NCBI RefSeq assembly: GCF_003946265.1
Contig: NZ_RHNO01000011.1
Location: forward strand, 28,326-92,325
Source: Levilactobacillus yonginensis
GTDB taxonomy: Bacteria > Bacillota > Bacilli > Lactobacillales > Lactobacillaceae
DNA length: 64,000 bases
Reading direction: 5' to 3'
Under the pieces are notes generated by a model. That model saw only the letters and a program-made list of their open reading frames with translations, was not told the DNA's origin and searched no databases. Position 1 is the stretch's first letter; each line of letters starts with the position of its first letter. Position numbers and translations under genes: made by a program. Positions 28,251 through 58,617 of this stretch are shown here, in pieces.

Positions 28251-28523
28251 CTAAGCAATGATCTGAAAACCGTTAAAGTGGTGTAGGGGGAGGTCCGTTA
28301 CGTCGATGGCTTGAACGGAAATCCAGGGAGCTAGGCCATGATTGAGCTGGGTTTGAAAGTCAACGAGTTGGTGTGAGTCGCCGGTGGCCAATACTTCGAC
28401 CTGACCGTTGCTACAATTTCTGACGGTGCCGGTGACACCTAGTTGCTGGGCTACCTTGGCTGCTGACCACCGAAAACCGACGCCCTGAACCAGACCACTA
28501 ATAATGAGTTTTTGGGTTTGCAC
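28251..28523 (-). CDS. acyP: acylphosphatase
   Basis: 90 aa enzyme hydrolysing acyl phosphates. The catalytic loop GLVQGVGFR carries the essential Arg, and the Asn expected at the second catalytic position lies in TGTVRNCSNGQVEV. GTG start after AGGAGG on the minus strand. It is divergent from the rRNA methylase gene, and upstream of yidC in the same direction with a 225-base gap. Confidence 0.93.
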   Translation of the reverse strand: MQTQKLIISGLVQGVGFRWSAAKVAQQLGVTGTVRNCSNGQVEVLATGDSHQLVDFQTQLNHGLAPWISVQAIDVTDLPLHHFNGFQIIA

Positions 28524-48592: not shown

Positions 48593-49933
48593 ATGGCAAA
48601 ACGGGACTATTCAAAAGATGATATTCGTCAAATGGCGAAGGATGAAAACGTTAAGTTTCTTCGTCTGATGTTCACTGACTTGTTCGGTACAATCAAGAAC
48701 GTCGAAGTACCAATTAGCCAACTCGGTAAGTTACTTGATAACAAGTTAATGTTCGATGGTTCTTCAATTGACGGATTTGTCCGGATTGAAGAAAGTGACA
48801 TGTACCTGTACCCAGACCTTTCCACGTGGATGATTTTCCCATGGAGTACGGAACGGGGTAAAATCGCTCGGGTTATTTGTGAAGTTTACACGACTGATGG
48901 GAAACCATTTGAAGGGGACCCACGGAACAACTTGATCCGGGTTCTTAACGACATGCGTAAGGCTGGTTTTACCGACTTTAACATTGGACCAGAACCTGAG
49001 TTCTTCTTGTTCAAGATGGATGAAAATGGCAAGCCAACGACTGAACTCAACGACAAGGGGAGTTACTTTGATATGGCCCCAATGGATTTGGGCGAAAATT
49101 GTCGGCGTGAAATTGTCTTGACCTTGGAAGAAATGGGCTTTGACGTTGAAGCAGCGCACCATGAAGTGGCGCCTGGCCAACATGAAATTGACTTTAAGTA
49201 TGCCGACGCATTGACTGCGGCCGACAACATTCAAACCTTTAAATTAGTTGTGAAGACCATCGCTCGGAAGTACGGTCTCTACGCAACGTTCATGCCGAAG
49301 CCTTTGGCTGGCATCAATGGTTCAGGGATGCATTTGAACATGTCGCTCTTCCACGACAAGGGGAACGCCTTCTTCGATGAAAAGGGCAAGATGCAATTGT
49401 CTGAAGACGCTTACCACTTCTTGGGTGGGTTGATGAAACATGCCCGAAGCTTCACAGCTATCTGCAACCCAATCGTTAACAGTTATAAGCGCTTAGTCCC
49501 TGGCTACGAAGCACCCGTTTACGTTGCTTGGTCTGGTTCTAACCGGTCACCATTGATTCGAGTACCAAACTCCCGTGGGTTATCCACCCGTTTGGAAGTT
49601 CGGAGTGTGGACCCAGCAGCTAACCCATACCTGGCTATCGCTGCCATGTTGGAAGCGGGGCTTGATGGATTACGAAACAAGCTGGCGCCACAAGAGGCTG
49701 TCGACCGGAACATTTATCGGATGGATGCCGAAGAACGTCAAGAAAACCACATTACGAACTTACCAGATACCTTGCACAACGCTTTGAAGGACTTAGCTGC
49801 CGACGACGTCATGCGTGGGGCCATGGGTAAGCACTTGTTCCAAAGCTTCATTGAAGCCAAAAACTTGGAATACAACTCTTACCGGACGCAAGTTTCCCAA
49901 TGGGAACGTGACCAGTATTTGGAATTGTACTAA
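48593..49933 (+). CDS. glnA: glutamine synthetase, type I
   Basis: Makes glutamine from glutamate, ammonia and ATP; dodecamer, 446 aa, the GSI-alpha length without the adenylylation insert. Motifs: [11 protein letters not shown] and DGSSIDGF (beta-grasp), [26 protein letters not shown], and [12 protein letters not shown]. Feedback-inhibited GlnA is the co-regulator of GlnR. Codon use is that of a highly expressed gene. Confidence 0.97.
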
Positions 49934-50084: not shown

Positions 50085-50390
50085 TGTCTGAGTGCTGAAT
50101 ACTTGGCAACTTAGTGTGATCTTTCGCCTTACCGGCAGCCAGATATGGGCTGGAACGGTGCGGACACAACTTGAAGCCTCGAAAGCCCCGAGTCTACAAG
50201 GCTGGTCGTTCTGCTAAGTCAGTAGGAAAAGACGCCTACTAACTAAGCAGAACGACGCGCCTGAGCCCATATCTGGCTACCTCTCGGCTTACACAGTGTT
50301 CTATTGTCTATCAACGAGGCTGTTAGGAGTGGCTCAACTAAATCTCTGTCAGCGGTATTCATGTTAGACCACTATCAGAGCCGAAATCCC
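50085..50390 (+). repeat. structured intergenic repeat, copy A (core 50125-50294)
   Basis: Non-coding element starting right after the glnA terminator. Its core shares with copies B and C the blocks CGCCTTACCGG, GGGCTGGAACGGTG, CAACTT, GCGCCTGAGCCC and ACCTCTCGGCTTACAC. Predicted stems: CCAGATATGGGCT with AGCCCATATCTGG (closing stem), CTTG..CTCG with CGAG..CAAG, and GTCGTTCTGCT (50205-50215) with AGCAGAACGAC plus AGTAGG with CCTACT (inner hairpin). About 95 further bases after the core also match copy C. No gene inside. Confidence 0.85.
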
Positions 50391-50639
50391 TAGCCTCAAG
50401 AGCGCTTAGTTAGTGGTCGAAAATATTTAGCAGCTCATGGATTATTACCATAAAATGGGGGATGTTTGTCTTCAGAATGACCGTAATTTTTTAACAGTTC
50501 GGGGTTTGGGCTAAAAATTTCGTGGTTTTCACGCGAAATTCCTGCAAACTGCTTTATTCTGTGCGGATTTTTGGTAACATGAAGCTATAACCAAATGTTC
50601 GCGGCAAGCGCTAGAGAACATCAGAATGAGGGATAATTC
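50391..50639. other. intergenic stretch upstream of the three-gene operon
   Basis: About 250 bases with no gene and no well-formed promoter visible to me; TATAAC at 50586-50591 may be a -10. Confidence 0.3.
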
Positions 50640-51518
50640 ATGGATAATCAAGAACAACAAGCTAGTGCGGCCGATGTCTTAACGCAGGCAATCGCAAGTA
50701 AACTCGATTACTTAAGTACGTTGCAGGCTGCGGTTCAGCACAGCGATGACCGACAAGTTTACGAACTGCTTGACCAAGTTCGTTATTATGAAGAAGTTAA
50801 GAAGACCCGTTCGACGCGGTCAGTGAACCATTTAGCTGAATTAGTCGATAATATTCACCCCCAAATCGCGCACTATTTGAGTGATAAGTTGATTGATTAC
50901 TTGGGGCACATTTACCCATTCTTCTACTACGAAGAATACACGACGGGCCTGTTCCATATCTACTTTGGGAACTGGTGGGACCGGCGTCTATTTGGTGACC
51001 TGGATGTCATCAATGTTCGGTTCGATTTTGACAAGACTGAATATCAAAAACTACGAGATTCATTTGCCCTGGAAAGTCAGAATCAACGGCTCAACACGGC
51101 GAAAATTGAATCCATCTCCGCTGAAAGCGAACAACTACAAAGCTTAGTTGATGCCCAAGCAACGCGGGACAACCAAAAGTCTGAATTACGAGACCAATTA
51201 AAGGAAAATAGTGGCAAGAGCAGCCTTCCTTGGGACTCTGGCAAGCTGAAGGACGAACGTCAACGGATCATTGATCAATTGACTAAGCTCGCTGACGAGG
51301 ACGAAAAGGCTTTGAACGCTCACAAGTTAATCAAAGCCAATGACGATAAGATTTTGGTGCTGTCAAAAGAAGATACCATCTTGAACTACGAAAAGCAGAG
51401 TATTCGGGATTCCTTTGATGATTTCGAACACTTTGAGGCTCACAACGCCAGTCTGTACGCCGATTACCTAAATAGCTTATTAGGCAAGAGCGAGGGTGAG
51501 GTGACTGTCGATGATTAA
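50640..51518 (+). CDS. unrecognised protein, gene 1 of three-gene operon
   Basis: 292 aa, soluble, strongly acidic. The N-terminal 140 residues look globular (HPQIAHYLSDKLIDYLGHI, then a Phe/Tyr/Trp-rich FYYEEYTTGLFHIYFGNWWDRR). From about residue 150 to 265 it is a predicted coiled coil with Gln/Glu/Lys heptads. I do not recognise a catalytic motif; coiled-coil proteins of this type are sometimes labelled SbcC-like, but no ATPase motif is present. The ATG follows GAGGGA. It overlaps gene 2 by 8 bases. Confidence 0.7.
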   Translation: MDNQEQQASAADVLTQAIASKLDYLSTLQAAVQHSDDRQVYELLDQVRYYEEVKKTRSTRSVNHLAELVDNIHPQIAHYLSDKLIDYLGHIYPFFYYEEYTTGLFHIYFGNWWDRRLFGDLDVINVRFDFDKTEYQKLRDSFALESQNQRLNTAKIESISAESEQLQSLVDAQATRDNQKSELRDQLKENSGKSSLPWDSGKLKDERQRIIDQLTKLADEDEKALNAHKLIKANDDKILVLSKEDTILNYEKQSIRDSFDDFEHFEAHNASLYADYLNSLLGKSEGEVTVDD

Positions 51519-52452
51519 CGAAAATGATCCATCAACGTTGACGACGAGTGGTCGACTGGTCAACTATAACGACGCGATTAAGTCCGGGCTAGAAACTGGC
51601 TTGAAGTTTACCCAGTTAATGGACCAACTGATCAAAACGAACGATGCTGACAAATTGGTGGCAGCCGCAACCGAGTTGGCTAACTTTACGTTGGACTCTG
51701 ACTTCGTGACGTTTCCCCACCAATACAGCAACGCAGACTACTACCTGCTGTTCATGTCGCGGATGCTAGAACTCCATGATCAGGGGAAGAACGTTATTTT
51801 ACAGTCTCGTGATCACAGAGAAGAATTGACCCAACAATTGACGCCACTTGGTGACCGGGGAACGTTCAACTTCCGGGTTGAATCTTCCGAAAATGGTGGC
51901 GTCTTCTACCGGGAACGCGCAACGGGTCAATCCTTGTTCTACCTGAACTTGGAACGGAAGATGTTCCGCTTTAACAGCCACGCCTTGACTCAGTTGTTCA
52001 TCATCGATCTACACGATACGGTGCCAGCTGAAACGGTCAAGACGTCCGTTAAAATTCTCCTAGACTTTGCTCGTTACTTAAAAGAAGACTATGGCTATTC
52101 CGTGGACTTTAACATCCTGGATGCTGCCAATCGGCAAAACTATGCCGTACGGTCAGCTGATTTGCCGGCTGGCGTGGTTGATCGGTTGTTTGTGACCGCT
52201 GCCAAGAACGACTACATGCTGACCAACGGAGTCAACGGCAACGGTGCTGAAATTCAACTCGATAAGGGTGTGGTTTTAGATATCTTCAACAACCAACTTG
52301 AAGGACAACCAGAATGGGTTATGACGGTCCACGATGATGACCAAAAGGTTTCTTGGTTTGATGTGCTCCTGAAATACCCATTCATGCGCGACTGGTACTT
52401 AGAAGACCTCACGGACTTAGAGATTGCCTCAGATCCCTTGATTTTTGCATAG
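51511..52452 (+). CDS. unrecognised protein, gene 2 of three-gene operon
   Basis: 313 aa, soluble, acidic, no membrane segment or signal. Segments such as FVTFPHQYSNADYYLLFMSRML and VFYRERATGQSLFYLNLERK (read in shorter parts) are hydrophobic-aromatic but match no family I can name. It begins inside the end of gene 1 (8-base overlap), so the two are translationally coupled and their products probably act together. Confidence 0.7.
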   Translation: MINENDPSTLTTSGRLVNYNDAIKSGLETGLKFTQLMDQLIKTNDADKLVAAATELANFTLDSDFVTFPHQYSNADYYLLFMSRMLELHDQGKNVILQSRDHREELTQQLTPLGDRGTFNFRVESSENGGVFYRERATGQSLFYLNLERKMFRFNSHALTQLFIIDLHDTVPAETVKTSVKILLDFARYLKEDYGYSVDFNILDAANRQNYAVRSADLPAGVVDRLFVTAAKNDYMLTNGVNGNGAEIQLDKGVVLDIFNNQLEGQPEWVMTVHDDDQKVSWFDVLLKYPFMRDWYLEDLTDLEIASDPLIFA

Positions 52453-52465
52453 GAGGACCCACAGC

Positions 52466-53008
52466 GTGTTAGAATTAGCCAAATTAGTGCAACAATCGAT
52501 TGCTTTGGACGAACAGATTACCGCTGATCGTGATATTGAAATGACGCGCAAGAGTCAGATTGAAAATGCCTACGTGGCCCTAGATGTGGAATTGGCGGAG
52601 GTTGCCAATACATCAGAATGGTTTAAGGTTTGGAAGACGCACCGGGGGAAAGCTGATGAAGGCCAGACACCCGCAGAAACGTTATTGACGGAGTACACGG
52701 ATGCCATGGACTTCTTCTTCCTGGTAGCGGCCAAAAAGACCTGGACCCATTTGATCATGTTGACAGAAGAGGACCTAACGACGCTGGAAAATAGTCGACC
52801 CGCTAAAGATCTCGACCAACAGTATTTGATTTTGAAACGGATGCTGTTCAACAGTCATTTTGCTCACCGACAGGAAGATTTTCGCCACGCATGGCGGTTC
52901 TTCTTGAAGTGGGGATTCGTTGACTTTGGTTTTAAACAGGACCAGATTCAAGCGGCTTATGAAGCCAAACGCCAAGTCAATTTAGACCGGCAAGCACATA
53001 ACTATTAA
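52466..53008 (+). CDS. unrecognised protein, gene 3 of three-gene operon
   Basis: 180 aa, mostly helical, soluble. The start is GTG at 52466, 9 bases after AGGAGG (52451-52456), 13 bases after gene 2. The C-terminal half contains DFRHAWRFFLKWGFVDFGFKQ, rich in aromatic residues. No motif recognised. A terminator at 53014-53046 ends the operon. Confidence 0.7.
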   Translation: MLELAKLVQQSIALDEQITADRDIEMTRKSQIENAYVALDVELAEVANTSEWFKVWKTHRGKADEGQTPAETLLTEYTDAMDFFFLVAAKKTWTHLIMLTEEDLTTLENSRPAKDLDQQYLILKRMLFNSHFAHRQEDFRHAWRFFLKWGFVDFGFKQDQIQAAYEAKRQVNLDRQAHNY

Positions 53009-53013
53009 TTCGG

Positions 53014-53046
53014 AAGCTAGTCCGCTATCATAAGGGCTAGCTTTTT
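53014..53046 (+). terminator. terminator of the three-gene operon
   Basis: AAGCTAG (53014-53020) pairs with CTAGCTT (53037-53043), followed by T residues. Confidence 0.75.
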
Positions 53047-53688
53047 GTGCACGAGAAGGGAGTGACCATCATCAGTCAGACGGATCCACGGGTGGTGCGG
53101 ACGAATGAACGTCTGAGAACCGCGTTGAGCCACCTATTACAACAAAATTCCTTGAAACAAATTTCTGTTCAAAAGTTAACCCAAACGGCGGAAATTACGC
53201 GGGGAACGTTCTATCTACATTATCAAGATAAGGTTGATTTTTTTGAACAGACCGAACAGCAGGTAATTGATGAGTGGCTGGCAGCTGCTAAGACCACGTT
53301 AGCCCCCAATGGGGAACCAGTGAGCGGATTTGCGTTGGGCCCAGCGCTGCGGTTTGCGGACGACCACCATCAGATTTTAGCCGTTCTGCTACACCCGCAA
53401 TTTACCCAATTTCGCCCACGGTTGATTCAACGGTTCGAACGGGAATTGTCACACTTTGGCGAGCAGGTCGACCGGCTGAATGATGAGCCACCACTGGACG
53501 TGCAAGTGGCCTTCTTAGCTGCGGCGTTTATCGGCTTAGTACAACATTGGTTGCGCGATGATCGACGGTACCGGCCGGACTATTTGGCAAATTCTTTTTA
53601 CCAGATGATAACGCCGGAAACCATGCCAGTGGCGGCCTGGTTCGCTCCGGTGGGGTTAGATCTAACAGCTGGTGTAGAAAAAGCTTGA
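53047..53688 (+). CDS. TetR/AcrR family transcriptional regulator
   Basis: About 213 aa. N-terminal TetR helix-turn-helix: [21 protein letters not shown], then [18 protein letters not shown] (Tyr-Leu-His-Tyr recognition core). The C-terminal ligand domain is unassigned. The start is uncertain: GTG at 53047 sits at the end of a terminator, and GTG at 53062 lies directly against GAAGGGA. The gene is followed by the rplU promoter, which overlaps its last codons. Target unknown; the three-gene operon upstream is a candidate. Confidence 0.85.
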
Positions 53689-53713
53689 CGTGGCTGACCC
53701 CATCAAGTATAAT
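53685..53713 (+). promoter_or_regulatory. promoter of rplU-prp-rpmA
   Basis: TTGACG at 53685-53690 and TATAAT at 53708-53713, spacer 17. The -35 overlaps the end of the TetR gene. Confidence 0.85.
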
Positions 53714-53719
53714 TTTCAT

Positions 53720-53825
53720 GTTGTATTTGTGGACTTCCACAGCTGCAACCGCTCGGGACAAGTTAGTTAAGATTTTCGCTTGCGGAGCACTTGTTTTCGG
53801 CGAGTCTAAGTCTAAATATATAAGG
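53720..53825 (+). promoter_or_regulatory. L21-type ribosomal protein leader
   Basis: Structured leader: a small hairpin GTGGA/TCCAC (53729-53740) and a longer stem CTCG..ACAAGT (53752-53763) with ACTTGT..CGAG (53789-53804). Position before rplU matches the Firmicute L21 leader, which is thought to control the operon; not confirmed by a model search. Confidence 0.65.
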
Positions 53826-53837
53826 AGGTGCACATAC

Positions 53838-54146
53838 ATGTACGCAATTATCGTAACTGGTGGCAAGCAGTACAAGGTCGAAGCAGGCCAAGCTGTTTAT
53901 GTCGAAAAGTTGAACGTTGAAGCTGGTGAAAAGGTTACTTTTGACCAAGTTGTCTTTGTCGGTGGCGACACGCCTAAGATTGGGACACCAACTGTTGCAG
54001 GTGCAACTGTTACTGGGACTGTTGAAAAGCAGGGTCTGGAAAAGAAGGTTGTTACTTTCAAGTACAAGGCCAAGAAGGGCCAACATACGAAGAAGGGTCA
54101 CCGTCAACCATACACTAAGGTTGTCGTTGATGCTATCAACGCTTAA
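53838..54146 (+). CDS. rplU: 50S ribosomal protein L21
   Basis: 102 aa, [18 protein letters not shown] with the C-terminal [11 protein letters not shown] signature. TAAGGAGGTG is the ribosome site. The operon order rplU-prp-rpmA is universal in Firmicutes. The frame is open far upstream, but the family start is this ATG. Confidence 0.97.
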
Positions 54147-54173
54147 GCCTAAAGATTAAGAGAGGCGATCTCG

Positions 54174-54512
54174 ATGATTCACGCGACGTTCCATCATGGA
54201 ACTAACCGAATCGATTCATTCCAAATCACTGGCCACGCTGACTCAGGTGAGTATGGTCAAGATATTGTTTGTGCTGCGGTTTCGGTGCTTGCGATTACGA
54301 CGGTCAATGCTCTACAACGAATCGCTGAGATTCCAATAGAGGTTGAGAATCGTAATCAGGAAGGTGGTTATCTGGAAGTCCACCTTCCACCAAAGCTGGA
54401 AGCAACGACCGAATTAAAGGGACAAACACTCCTCCAGAGTTTTGCGGATGGGTTAAGAGATGTCGCCACAAATTACGCGGATTACATTCAATTCGCTGAA
54501 ACCAAAGATTGA
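54174..54512 (+). CDS. prp: ribosomal-processing cysteine protease Prp
   Basis: 112 aa protease that removes the N-terminal extension of L27. The catalytic dyad is His in ITGHADSGEYG and Cys in DIVCAAVSVL, the family pattern. Encoded between rplU and rpmA with its substrate downstream. ATG with AGAGGCG upstream. Confidence 0.95.
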   Translation: MIHATFHHGTNRIDSFQITGHADSGEYGQDIVCAAVSVLAITTVNALQRIAEIPIEVENRNQEGGYLEVHLPPKLEATTELKGQTLLQSFADGLRDVATNYADYIQFAETKD

Positions 54513-54530
54513 AACGCGGAGGTGAAACTT

Positions 54531-54830
54531 ATGCTGATGAACATGAACTTACAATTCTTCTCTCACCATAAAGGTGGTGGGTCTACTGCTAACGGTCGTG
54601 ACTCTGCTGGTCGTCGTCTTGGGACGAAGGCTGCTGACGGTTCTACTGTTACCGGTGGTTCTATCCTTTACCGTCAACGTGGGACGCACATCTACCCTGG
54701 CTTGAACGTAGGCCGCGGTGGTGACGATACTCTGTTTGCTAAGGTTGCTGGCGTCGTTAAATTCGAACGTCTTGGCCGTGACAAGCGTCAAGTATCCGTA
54801 TACCCAGTTGCAGAAGAAGCAGCTAAATAA
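54531..54830 (+). CDS. rpmA: 50S ribosomal protein L27
   Basis: 99 aa, with the Firmicute N-terminal leader MNLQFF before [15 protein letters not shown]. Prp cleaves after FF so that the mature tail reaches the peptidyl transferase centre. The ATG at 54531 is 8 bases after GGAGG (54518-54522); two more ATG follow within four codons. Confidence 0.95.
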
Positions 54831-54854
54831 CACGAGGTTTTCCTCGTAACGACT

Positions 54855-54905
54855 GAAGAGCTTGAGGCGAGACCAATTCGCTTTGAGTTCTTCTTTTTTC
54901 GCCTT
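54855..54905 (+). terminator. rpmA terminator
   Basis: GAAGAGCT..AGGCGA (54856 on) pairs imperfectly with TCGCTT..AGTTCTTC, followed by six T. A smaller ACGAGG/CCTCGT hairpin lies just before. Confidence 0.75.
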
Positions 54906-55036
54906 AAAATGGGGTGCCAGTTGGAAAAACATGATTAAGTGTCATTGTGAATTTACCAGGAACTTGAACGGCTAAAAACGTCGAGCATTGTTGACTGATG
55001 AAGAATAATTATGCCGGTTAATTGTGGTTAAAAGCT

Positions 55037-55191
55037 GTGTAAGCCGAGAGGTCGGCCTTCCTGGGCTCAGGCGCCTCGTTGTTCTTAGCCGTTTACGGCT
55101 TAGAACAAGACCAAGCTTTAAGACTTGTGGGTTTCAAGGCTTAAAGTTGTGTCGGCACCGTTCCAGCCCAGGAGGGCCGACCGGTAAGGCG
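55037..55191 (-). repeat. structured intergenic repeat, copy B (inverted)
   Basis: The same element as copies A and C on the minus strand, core only. The closing stem is CCTGGGCT with AGCCCAGG, where A and C have TATGGGCT with AGCCCATA: both arms changed together. The middle hairpin is CTTTAAG with CTTAAAG and CCTTG with CAAG, again co-varied. The inner hairpin is TTGTTCT..AGCCGT with ACGGCT..AGAACAA. It lies between rpmA and the M24 peptidase and is not coding. Confidence 0.85.
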
Positions 55192-55230
55192 AATTCCCAT
55201 GTTTAAGGGAACAATTTCAAGGAGGCGGTC

Positions 55231-56295
55231 ATGATGACTCGGATTGAACAGTTGCAGGCCAAGTTTGCTGACCTGAGTATCGATAGCTTTTTGGTTTCAT
55301 CACCCAGCAACCAGTTATATCTAGCTGGTGCGAGTGTCGAACCTGGTGACGGATATTTATTAGTGACGGCCAATTCGGCAGTCTTTGTGACCGATGCCCG
55401 CTATCAGAGTGAATTAGCGGCAACCATGCCGAACATGCCACAAACAATCACCCGTAACTATTTGCAGGCCGTTGACGACGCCTTAGAGGCTGCTCACGCG
55501 ACTGTATTGGGTATCGAGGATAGTTTGACCTTGGCCGAATTTGATTGGTTAGACGAGCACCTGATGACTGACATCGTGCCAATGGCTGGTGTGGTCGATG
55601 GGCTCCGTCAAATCAAGGAACCGACCGAGGTAGCCGCTATTCGGCACGCCACGACCCTGACGAGTGAAGGGCTATTAGCCCTCTTTGATGTACTCAAACC
55701 CGGGATGACTGAGCGGCAGGCTGCCCAGTGGCTCGAACGCTGGATGCAAGATCACGGTGCAACGGGTCCTAGCTTTGGGACCATCGTAGCTAGTGGGGAG
55801 CGTTCCGCCTGGCCACACGGACAAGCGAGCGACAAAGTGTTAGCTCACGGCGAACTCGTAACAGTCGATTGTGGCTTTTACGTGGATGGTTACACCTCTG
55901 ATGTGACCCGGACGGTAGCTTTGGGCGACCCTGGTGAAATGTTGAAGACGGCTTATCAGGCCGTTCAAAGTGCCCAAGAAAAAATCATGGCAGCGGTTAA
56001 ACCCGGTGTGACTGGCGGCGAACTGGACGCAATCGGTCGAAATTTCTTGACCGAACGCGGATTTGGCGAGGCGTTCATTCACGGAACCGGCCATGGAATT
56101 GGCCTGGACATTCACGAAGGCCCGAACATTGGGCATGGTTGGCCAGACGTAATGACTGCTAACGAGGTCGTTACGGTAGAACCCGGTGTTTACTTTGCCG
56201 GCAAGGGTGGTATCAGAATTGAGGACGACTTATTGGTGACGCCAACCGGTCACGAAGTCCTGACGACGGTACCCCGGAATTTAATTATTCTGTAA
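55231..56295 (+). CDS. M24 family Xaa-Pro peptidase
   Basis: 354 aa aminopeptidase-P/prolidase type. N-terminal creatinase-like domain, then pita-bread catalytic domain. Metal ligands: DCGFYVDGYTSDVTR (two Asp), GTGHGIGLDIHEGP (His), TVEPGVYF (Glu) and GIRIEDDLLV (Glu). Two ATG in a row follow GGAGG. It cuts proline-containing peptides in the cytoplasm. efp lies downstream, the usual neighbour in Firmicutes. Confidence 0.92.
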   Translation: MMTRIEQLQAKFADLSIDSFLVSSPSNQLYLAGASVEPGDGYLLVTANSAVFVTDARYQSELAATMPNMPQTITRNYLQAVDDALEAAHATVLGIEDSLTLAEFDWLDEHLMTDIVPMAGVVDGLRQIKEPTEVAAIRHATTLTSEGLLALFDVLKPGMTERQAAQWLERWMQDHGATGPSFGTIVASGERSAWPHGQASDKVLAHGELVTVDCGFYVDGYTSDVTRTVALGDPGEMLKTAYQAVQSAQEKIMAAVKPGVTGGELDAIGRNFLTERGFGEAFIHGTGHGIGLDIHEGPNIGHGWPDVMTANEVVTVEPGVYFAGKGGIRIEDDLLVTPTGHEVLTTVPRNLIIL

Positions 56296-56309
56296 GTGGC
56301 CCACGTATC

Positions 56310-56339
56310 TTGCTTTTTATGGGTAAGAATTGATATTAT
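56310..56339 (+). promoter_or_regulatory. promoter of efp-asp23-nusB
   Basis: TTGCTT at 56310-56315, spacer 18, TATTAT at 56334-56339 with TGA upstream (extended -10). Confidence 0.55.
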
Positions 56340-56372
56340 AAAGAGGACATATTTTAGGAGGCTGAACACATT

Positions 56373-56933
56373 ATGGCAATTTCTACTGCTGATTTTAAAA
56401 ACGGTTTAACTATTGAAGTCGATCACGCAATCTGGCGGATCATTGAATTCCAACACGTTAAGCCTGGTAAGGGTGGCGCTTTCGTTCGTTCAAAGCTTAA
56501 GAACTTACGGACGGGTGCCGTTCAAGAAAAGACTTTCCGTGCCGGTGCAAAGATGGAACGTGCTGACATCCAAACGCGTTCTATGCAATACCTGTACGAA
56601 GACGCTGACAACCGGGTCTTCATGGACACTGACAACTTCGAACAAATCGAAGTGCCAGATGACCAGATCAAGGATCAACTGCCATACTTACAAGAAAACA
56701 TGAACGTTGACTTGGTTCAATTCAATTCCGAAGTCTTAGGAATCGAAGTACCGAACACCGTTGTCTTGGAAGTTACGGCTACTGAACCTGGTATCAAGGG
56801 GAACACCGCTTCTGGTGGTTCCAAGCCTGCTACCATGAACACTGGCTTAGTCGTACAAGTGCCATTCTTCGTTAACGAAGGCGACAAGCTCTCCATCAAC
56901 ACCACCGACGGCACGTACATTTCTCGCGCCTAG
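56373..56933 (+). CDS. efp: elongation factor P
   Basis: Relieves ribosome stalling at polyproline; 186 aa, three OB-like domains. The conserved loop is [14 protein letters not shown] with Lys at the tip, the site modified in other bacteria. AGGAGG precedes the ATG. First gene of efp-asp23-nusB. Confidence 0.96.
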
Positions 56934-56971
56934 GTTTACCACACGTTTAATCAGTAAGGGAGGGTCAACGA

Positions 56972-57412
56972 ATGGCAGAAGATACTAATATTATTTTAGA
57001 ATCCAAGGAACCTGCTTTGGGCAAGATCGAAGTGGCACCGCAAGTCCTCGAAATCATCGTCGGCATCGCGGCTAGCCAAACTGAAGGGGTCGCTCGGATG
57101 CGGGGTTCTCTGGCAAACAGCGTCACCGAATTATTTGGTCGCAAGGAGCAACACGGCAAGGGCGTTAAGTTAGTCTTTGACGGCGACGAATTAGCGGTCG
57201 ATGTCTACGTTTACTTGAATTACGGGGTAGCGGTTCCCAAGGTTGCCTTGGCCATTCAAGATAGCGTGAAGCAACAATTGTTGTTCATGACGGACCTCGA
57301 TTTACGTGAAGTTAACGTTCACGTGGAAGGCGTCATTCCCGAAAAGACGGCGCAACAGGTCGATCCAGATAACCTGTTCAACCAGACCGATGAAGGAGAC
57401 AGTGACCAATAG
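56972..57412 (+). CDS. Asp23/Gls24 family envelope stress response protein
   Basis: 146 aa, YqhY type. GKIEVAPQVLEIIVGIAAS begins the Asp23 domain (read in parts: GKIEVAPQVL, IVGIAASQ), then VDVYVYLNYGVAVPKV. In Bacillus YqhY lies between accC and nusB; here it lies between efp and nusB. Possibly linked to lipid supply. GTG of nusB shares one base with its stop. Confidence 0.9.
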   Translation: MAEDTNIILESKEPALGKIEVAPQVLEIIVGIAASQTEGVARMRGSLANSVTELFGRKEQHGKGVKLVFDGDELAVDVYVYLNYGVAVPKVALAIQDSVKQQLLFMTDLDLREVNVHVEGVIPEKTAQQVDPDNLFNQTDEGDSDQ

Positions 57413-57843
57413 TGACACTTACACGACATCAAATTCGGGAACGCGCGTTTCAAATGCTTTTTGCCTTGAACGCCAATCCCGATGCCGATCATGATGCGTT
57501 GTTCCAACGTGTTTTGACGGATGACCCGAACCAACTCGTTCCAGTGCCAGATTACTTACAGACTCTGGTAGACGGCGTTTTAGCAAGCCAAAGTGATTTG
57601 GATGCGCAAATCGACCAATACCTGAGTACTGGGTGGCAATTAAAGCGGATCGCCAAGACTGATTTGGTGATCTTGCGGTTGGCATTTTACGAAATCGATG
57701 ACGTGGAAGAGGTTCCTAACCGAGTAGCCGTTAACGAAGCCTTGGAATTAGCCAAGAAGTTTAGTGACGACCGCTCCCGTCGATTCATCAACGGTGTGTT
57801 AGCACATACGTTAGATGGCGACGACGCGAACACAGAATCCTAG
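57412..57843 (+). CDS. nusB: transcription antitermination factor NusB
   Basis: 143 aa all-helical NusB: RHQIRERAFQMLFAL, then AKTDLVILRLAFYEI and VAVNEALELAKKFSDDRS with RFINGVLAH. Works with NusE/S10 on rRNA transcripts. GTG start overlapping the previous stop by one base. Confidence 0.95.
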   Translation: MTLTRHQIRERAFQMLFALNANPDADHDALFQRVLTDDPNQLVPVPDYLQTLVDGVLASQSDLDAQIDQYLSTGWQLKRIAKTDLVILRLAFYEIDDVEEVPNRVAVNEALELAKKFSDDRSRRFINGVLAHTLDGDDANTES

Positions 57844-57852
57844 TCATTTAAA

Positions 57853-57897
57853 TAAACGAGGACTCGCTGGCAATTAGCCGGTGGGTCCTCGTTTTTT
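57853..57897 (+). terminator. nusB terminator
   Basis: AACGAGGAC (from 57854) pairs with GTCCTCGTT, followed by T residues. Confidence 0.85.
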
Positions 57898-57902
57898 ATT
57901 CC

Positions 57903-58225
57903 CGTCTGAAGTCCGAAGGCCGAAAGCTGGGCAATCCGGTGTGAACTTCCGCCTTACCGGCCGCCAGATATGGGCTGGAACGGTGCAGACGCAACTTGAA
58001 GCCTCGAAAGACCCGAGTCTCCAAGCTTGGTCTTCTGCTAAGCCAGTAGGAAAAGCACCTACTGACAAAGCAGAACGATGCGCCTGAGCCCATATCCGGC
58101 GACCTCTCGGCTTACACCGGATTTTGCTATCAGTTATCAGCTCAGCTGTTTGCTATCGGCTAGATTGTCATGAGCGGTTCTACTAAATCCTGTTAGCGAG
58201 AAAAATGTTATACCATAATCAGAGC
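57903..58225 (+). repeat. structured intergenic repeat, copy C (core 57950-58117)
   Basis: Starts after the nusB terminator, as copy A does after that of glnA. It has near-palindromic ends: AATCCGGTGT (57933-57942) pairs with ACACCGGATT (58114-58123). Internal stems: ATATGGGCT with AGCCCATAT; CTTG..CTCG with CGAG..CAAG; TTCTGCT..CAGTAGG with CCTACTG..AGCAGAA. The tail to 58225 matches the tail of copy A (ACTAAATC, CTGT.AGCG, ATCAGAGCC). Small open frames inside are not conserved between copies. Confidence 0.85.
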
Positions 58226-58226
58226 C

Positions 58227-58396
58227 AGGGGAGGCCGGAGATGTATCCAGCCGTGATTGTGGTGTTTGCTGGTGATTTTCCAGCTTACAGCACGGGCGAA
58301 TTTGAAGACACGTGGTTTTCGTGGCTTCAAATCCAGCGAGAAGCCCGCTCTTTGGCCGAAGCATCCCCTCAGCAGGCGACATCTCTGTCCCCCTGA
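58227..58396 (+). other. strongly folded non-coding stretch after copy C
   Basis: CAGGGG (58227-58232) pairs with CCCCTG (58391-58396), GAGATGT (58239-58245) with ACATCTC (58380-58386), and inside ATTTGAAG..CACG (58301-58313) with CGTG..CTTCAAAT (58321-58333), closed by GGGC/GCCC; GCTGG/CCAGC is a further hairpin at 58269-58285. It reads as one multi-branched RNA. Not seen after copies A and B. The 63-codon frame over it has no ribosome site. Confidence 0.55.
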
Positions 58397-58437
58397 GTGC
58401 GACTAATTAGGTCAAGGCTGGAAAACAGACTCATTGG

Positions 58438-58498: not shown

Positions 58499-58617
58499 TG
58501 GAAAACATCCGATTGGTTAAACTAAAAGTGCGACCTGAACTGAGGTGTTCGGTCCCGTTTTGCTGACGAATATGCTAAAATAATAGGTAACTTTAAATTT
58601 TGGGGAGGACGAGCTTC

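Follow-up and report, generated by a model that had tools for sequence, protein, structure and literature searches.

In a stretch of about 8 kb of the genome of Levilactobacillus yonginensis (GCF_003946265.1, contig NZ_RHNO01000011.1), three copies of a folded repeat, named A, B and C, raise the question of whether they belong to a structured RNA or to a small mobile element, and of what their fold is for. They lie in the window analysed here, the whole stretch of 64,000 nucleotides between positions 28,326 and 92,325 of that contig (Table 1). The original prediction had read A and C on the forward strand and B on the reverse strand, and described long invariant blocks and stems compensated between the copies; copies, blocks and stems are all present where they were reported, and none of the Rfam families searched matches them. 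The description of the strand had to be reversed, as the fold is better on the complement of the strand that was described, and the list of three, although each member is real, was incomplete, since copy C has a second, inverted module and the genome holds more than 100 module matches. Both guesses about the nature of the repeat found partial support: covariation for the structured RNA and, for the mobile element, terminal repeats, target duplications, an empty site and an insertion sequence (IS) with the same ends, all of them in relatives, whereas no terminal repeat could be recognised at the copies in the window. Each of the three copies is a single module of a unit that usually has two. 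That this unit is a non-autonomous element with mirror-image covarying folds is well supported by the sequence comparisons that follow.

The covariation of the fold, first seen in three copies, was confirmed in 37 copies of the left module. These showed 95.8% standard pairs, against 87.3% in shuffles, with 127 cells changed on both sides (28 in shuffles) and a both-sided change in 19 of the 51 pairs (11.9 in shuffles). None of 500 shuffles reached the values of the left module for paired cells, double-changed pairs, double-changed cells or covariation score, and three of 500 had at least as many further pair types. When the partner was shifted by 1–3 columns, pairing fell to 28–44%, and one added pair, between columns 102 and 133, fails in 35 of the 37 sequences. 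The right module covaries independently (both-sided change in 28 of 37 pairs; 0 of 500 shuffles), and the unpaired core blocks of the modules are strongly conserved. At the gathering threshold, Rfam 15 matched nothing in the window apart from an L21 leader, leaving the modules without a match, and one element of each of three kinds gave no match at relaxed E-values.

To count the modules, copy A was compared by BLAST with its own genome (G000; 2.69 Mb in 63 contigs), giving 44 places that were reduced to 41 copies; four of these are truncated and were left out of a covariance model built from the other 37. At E values up to 0.001 the model matched 123 places in G000 and 87 in a close species, G050 (150 candidates scored in each). 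For 20 of the 41 copies a second conserved block lies no more than 700 nt downstream, amounting to 19 distinct blocks because a tandem pair shares one. This block, module 2, is homologous to the reverse complement of module 1: the two models match each other's places on opposite strands, with E about 1e-9 at best, and at L035 and L038 the model that detects the left module matches again behind it, on the reverse strand (E 5.5e-10 and 7e-15). Since the modules are partly palindromic, the profile search also gave weak matches on a module's own opposite strand. The inverted homology explains the pairing between the ends of the two modules, and a single large RNA closed by this pairing was rejected. 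Of the 55 pairs of neighbouring modules in the loci fetched from G000, where the median spacer is 91 nt, 48 are oriented outward. The 20 loci fetched from other genera include 11 that contain two modules, in some cases weak ones, no more than 700 nt apart, and 10 of these pairs are likewise oriented outward. Other arrangements were seen as well. Left-type modules stand in tandem, 47 nt apart, at the same locus in two species (L030 1508-1886 and L317 1361-1739), a second tandem copy is present in L318 and missing from L037, and in another genus four modules occupy about 730 nt, three pointing one way and one reversed (G128:C4:201751-202476).

The carrier of the modules is very probably a mobile element. 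The third subfamily of modules led to elements with the ends CTAAAGGTTGAAAG...CTTTCAACCTTTAG, which form a 14-bp terminal repeat, and intact relatives consist of this repeat, a left module reading leftward, a spacer, a right module reading rightward and the repeat again, often between copies of a 7-bp duplication. Two-module elements measure about 0.54–0.62 kb (543–623 bp) and one-module elements about 327–441 bp. Among 38 listed end pairings, all with at most four mismatches and including one locus twice and some long chance pairings, an exact duplication of 6–9 bp was present in 15 (6 bp in three, 7 bp in nine, 8 bp in two and 9 bp in one) and a duplication with one mismatch in four. A clean empty site was found for L229, uninterrupted in G050, where a single GTATATTAA stands, and in G049. 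At three loci, L158 (3379-3819), L207 (1444-1831) and L114 (7034-7396, a locus that contains masked bases), one module was seemingly lost between short AGCCGGAG-like direct repeats, as judged by eye.

A candidate for the source of the movement was found among insertion sequences with similar ends. The one at L232, in G000, has the ends CTGAAACTTGAAAG, which differ from those of the elements at 3 of 14 positions; by eye it has no target duplication, and its transposase has matches in 14 of the 35 genomes of the genus. One of these matches belongs to the insertion sequence at L248, in the sister species G018. This sequence is 1559 bp long counting its 14-bp ends, which are identical to those of the elements, several of which match it at 14 of 14 positions at both ends. 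It is flanked by an 8-bp duplication, CTGATTAA, and contains an open frame of 450 aa that scores 470 bits against the NCBIfam IS4 model NF049925 (cut-off 250) and in whose translation the YREK motif, YARRWQIEGYFKVAK, is visible at the spacing known for this motif. In the accessible part of its description, the ISPepr1 subgroup has a length of 1500–1600 bp, ends of the form YT-AA-YTT---A and an AT-rich target duplication of 7–8 bp (PMC2266710). Compared by eye with that end consensus, L248 (CTAAAGGTTGAAAG) agrees at 7 of the 8 fixed positions and L232 at 8 of 8; L248 has the length, the AT-rich duplication and the IS4-family YREK transposase as well, and thus fits the subgroup, so far as this part of the source defines it, except at one of eight fixed end positions. 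Because of the identical 14-bp ends, an ISPepr1-like IS4-family transposase is predicted to move the elements. With miniature inverted-repeat transposable elements (MITEs) derived from such sequences they share the 14-bp ends of a partner IS of 1559 bp with 5'-CT ends and an 8-bp duplication; unlike it, they lack a transposase and have two covarying modules.

Selection for a fold on one strand permits G-U pairs there but not A-C mismatches, and the mirror orientation of two homologous folds turns this rule into a clean test: in both modules it is the outward strand that carries the signal. For module 1, read outward, a fixed set of pairs gives 28 G-U against 8 A-C cells, a figure derived from a count made on the opposite strand. 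In three subfamilies the more stable fold is that of the outward strand in 31 of 37, 23 of 26 and 18 of 18 sequences; this strand has consensus energies of -75.7, -34.7 and -72.2 against -58.1, -27.5 and -50.0 for the complementary strand, and in strand-specific consensus folds its ratios of G-U to A-C are 101:6, 38:13 and 69:10, in cells that are not independent events. The same signal is present in resident copies and not in mobile ones alone: single changes between orthologous copies gave 27 G-U against 6 A-C (one-sided binomial 1.6e-4), counted over 25 module pairs that include one mispairing of the L318/L037 tandem copies and two apparent module replacements. This suggests that the constrained strand is the outward strand in both modules. 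As the two modules of one element would then be constrained on opposite DNA strands, we infer that an outward-read RNA is a simpler account of both modules than a single intermediate of single-stranded DNA.

Many insertions are shared between G050 and G000, so that resident copies could be compared with their counterparts at the same loci. Across eight colinear loci, in which we kept L324/L041, whose flanks align badly (24% differences), and L314/L044, which includes a replaced module, differences amounted to 99/2403 in modules (4.1%), 131/943 in spacers (13.9%), 106/1598 in 100-nt flanks and 1487/19141 in the remainder, mostly genes; the spacer was more diverged than the modules in all five loci that have one. 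Module pairs with a divergence above 11.5% were set aside, namely four of the 19 left-type pairs and one of the eight right-type pairs. In the 15 left-type pairs that were left, paired columns had changed on both sides 18 times, where 1.3 such double changes would be expected if the sides were independent, and 16 of these changes were pair-keeping; of 27 single changes, 15 were pair-keeping. The ortholog of copy B in G050 (L320) has two compensated double changes. Pair counts from sequences folded jointly two by two were not used, as that method favours standard pairs. At three of the eight orthologous loci with both modules in both species (L310/L010, L322/L035 and L323/L038) the element is inverted in place between colinear flanks; BLAST gave inverted segments of 391 and 375 nt for the first two, and at L323/L038, where it also aligns colinearly through the palindromic element, the flip was judged by the high-scoring module on each side. 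L311/L026 was excluded from this count for its different arrangement, and a gene-orientation survey based on crude open reading frame (ORF) calls was not used.

The modules are found well beyond one species. The covariance model matched 34 of the 35 genomes of the genus, the exception being G021, and 76 of 301 Lactobacillaceae genomes, in 13 of 40 genera, in a survey with stricter filters and at most nine scored matches per genome. In an order-level sample, 10 of 295 genomes matched, all of them Lactobacillaceae, the non-family share of the 295 not being shown, and BLAST found no match in 16 genomes of other families. In the genus g38, module loci align over 1.4 kb between species at 84–92% identity (L265/L283 and L279/L280/L286).

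How might such an element work? We propose that an ISPepr1-like IS4-family transposase mobilises the 0.6-kb non-autonomous element and that, because the modules point outward, any transcript running through it from either side would have a correctly folded module as its last part ahead of the host sequence. The module might then act in cis on read-through transcripts as a processing or insulating structure, which would make insertion beside genes tolerable, and selection would keep it for that reason; copies A, B and C would be old residents with decayed ends. The parts of this proposal differ in strength. That the folds are needed as RNA is probable; action in cis on read-through transcripts is a tentative suggestion, which we would sooner doubt than rely on; and the whole, an outward inverted pair in an IS4-moved element with folds needed as RNA and a role in read-through, has a little less than an even chance of being right. 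A broader version, in which mirror-image outward copies of one branched RNA are a mobile device of the entire family, controlling the processing or expression of the next gene, is rather doubtful.

Several observations weigh against the proposal. The copies in the window have no terminal repeat above background, the best candidate, to the left of copy C, having four mismatches and being equalled or bettered by 34 out of 500 random stretches; the assignment of A, B and C to the family is based on their modules. Half of the end pairings (19 of 38) have no duplication, no clean empty site was found for L206, and around the modules fetched from other genera no terminal repeat like that of Levilactobacillus was found, so that the modules are wider than, and not tied to, a single vehicle. 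RNAalifold found G-U above A-C on the complementary strand, too (42:24, 31:20 and 42:14), since it picks pairs that suit the strand supplied. The seven right-type pairs have 15 single changes, nine of them pair-keeping, and no double change, and 13 of the 18 double changes in left-type modules sit in three modules of two flipped loci; such clustering means that gene conversion or hairpin-guided correction may contribute. It is what would be expected if the modules were passive palindromes, the subterminal structure of a MITE without RNA function, whose pairing is kept by hairpin-templated correction, slippage or conversion; the apparently wholesale replacement of modules between L314 and L044 and between L316 and L033, and the loss of one module of L158 and of L207 between short direct repeats, as judged by eye, fit this too. 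We nevertheless regard it as unlikely, because the modules evolve more slowly than the spacer of their own element at five of five loci, an excess of G-U over A-C on one strand is unexpected if Watson-Crick pairs are being restored in duplex DNA, and the unpaired core blocks are strongly conserved.

Inversion in place at three of eight loci, together with a structurally favoured strand and the presence of Y1 transposase genes in G000, could also mean that the modules are single-strand DNA sites, extruded hairpins comparable to attC or REP that a recombinase or transposase recognises and by which the elements are flipped. In the two modules, though, opposite DNA strands are favoured, the terminal repeats and duplications are as expected of a DDE transposase, and the distance from the Y1 genes to the modules among the matches listed is about 11 kb or more, all of which makes this account distinctly improbable. 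If, instead, the modules were genes for small RNAs that act in trans, by binding a host protein or regulating many targets, with the transposon merely spreading them, their occurrence beyond the ISPepr1-like vehicle and the outward pairs in other genera would be accounted for; more than 100 diverged matches in one genome and a member of the genus without any match are ill suited to one essential RNA, and we hold such a role to be improbable. A promoter scan of the copy C region found no promoter-like site (shuffle mean 0.7), which counts against trans-acting genes and also against the proposal favoured here, that outward-facing folds are needed as RNA in a mobile element.

Known systems were compared with the element. 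HEARO/IscB, the omega RNA of TnpB and the end hairpins of IS605 were rejected in view of the terminal repeats and target duplications of the intact elements and of the DDE insertion sequence whose ends they share. REPINs are inverted pairs of short REP hairpins moved by RAYT, a Y1 transposase, and like the present elements they are inverted pairs of structured units with many copies per genome; the modules here, however, are about 150–195 nt long and branched where a REP hairpin is short, and they lie between terminal repeats with duplications. Five IS200-like Y1_Tnp matches, some partial or interrupted by stops, were found in G000; the nearest module among the matches listed was about 11 kb away, and a REPIN/RAYT system was rejected, as Y1 genes are not near modules among those matches. 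BOX, NEMIS/Correia and ERIC are dispersed intergenic repeats that fold, some of them thought to be active in transcripts, and share these features with the modules; they differ from them in that the modules have no Rfam match, as far as that tests sequence identity, and form two homologous branched units facing outward. GOLLD, ROOL and OLE, described in the accessible part of PMC12286853 as ornate large bacterial RNAs, the first partly named after the Lactobacillales, would have in common with the modules that they are structured bacterial RNAs; the modules differ from them, as there described, in being short, in their more than 100 copies and in having no Rfam match at relaxed E-values. Among the papers listed by our literature search none seemed to describe the present element, and, MITEs as such being known, a MITE family with paired outward structural modules appears to be new.

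Small bacterial repeats are often assumed to be inert palindromes. If the modules work as RNA, bacteria of fermentations and of the gut would have a large regulatory layer carried by a transposon and flipping in place, and the annotation of repeats in Lactobacillaceae would need revision. Should the family-wide version hold, a working fold would end the outgoing transcript whichever way the element lands or flips, and the more than 100 modules in one genome would make up a layer of RNA control in Lactobacillaceae that is distributed and spreads by itself, with transposon ends that differ between genera. Orthologous copies in close species make the question testable now.

Table 1. Positions of the modules and associated features in the window, and of Y1 transposase matches in the same genome (G000, given as contig and position).
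Feature	Position	Strand	Basis or remark
Copy A, single fold module	50125..50294	- (structured, outward)	170-nt self match and 41 copies
Possible 20-nt remnant of the partner module of copy A	50370..50389	+	CACTATCAGAGCCGAAATCC; likeness to the start of module 2, by eye
Copy B, single fold module	55037..55191	+ (structured)	sequence and profile match
Intrinsic-terminator-like hairpin	57854..57894	+	just upstream of copy C, after a nusB-like ORF
Copy C, left module	57950..58117	- (structured, outward)	sequence, alignment and profile match
Spacer between the modules of copy C	58118..58222		profile boundaries
Copy C, right module, inverted homologue of the left	58223..58401	+ (structured, outward)	profile match, 154 bits, E 2.8e-46
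Y1 transposase matches	G000:C24:18128, C15:17346, C1:169208, C34:170816		IS200-like

The three copies differ in what is left of the partner: copy C has both modules, copy B has one, and copy A perhaps has a 20-nt remnant of the second, for which the profile search gave no supporting match. Copy A points towards the 3' end of a glutamine-synthetase-like ORF that ends at 49933, copy B ends 39 nt ahead of the ATG of the ORF 55231-56295 (aminopeptidase-P-like, by eye), and the right module of copy C lies about 200 nt ahead of a folD-like ORF that starts near 58600. The terminator scan near copy C found one candidate, with a shuffle mean of 0.9. The 241 nt around copy A had no match in the plasmid and phage collections. 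The L21 leader mentioned above (RF00559, 58 bits; 53737-53817, forward strand) stands upstream of a ribosomal-protein L21-like ORF and is an ordinary known leader, and between copy A and a TetR-like ORF three successive ORFs of 292, 313 and 187 aa occupy positions 50640-53008 of the forward strand.

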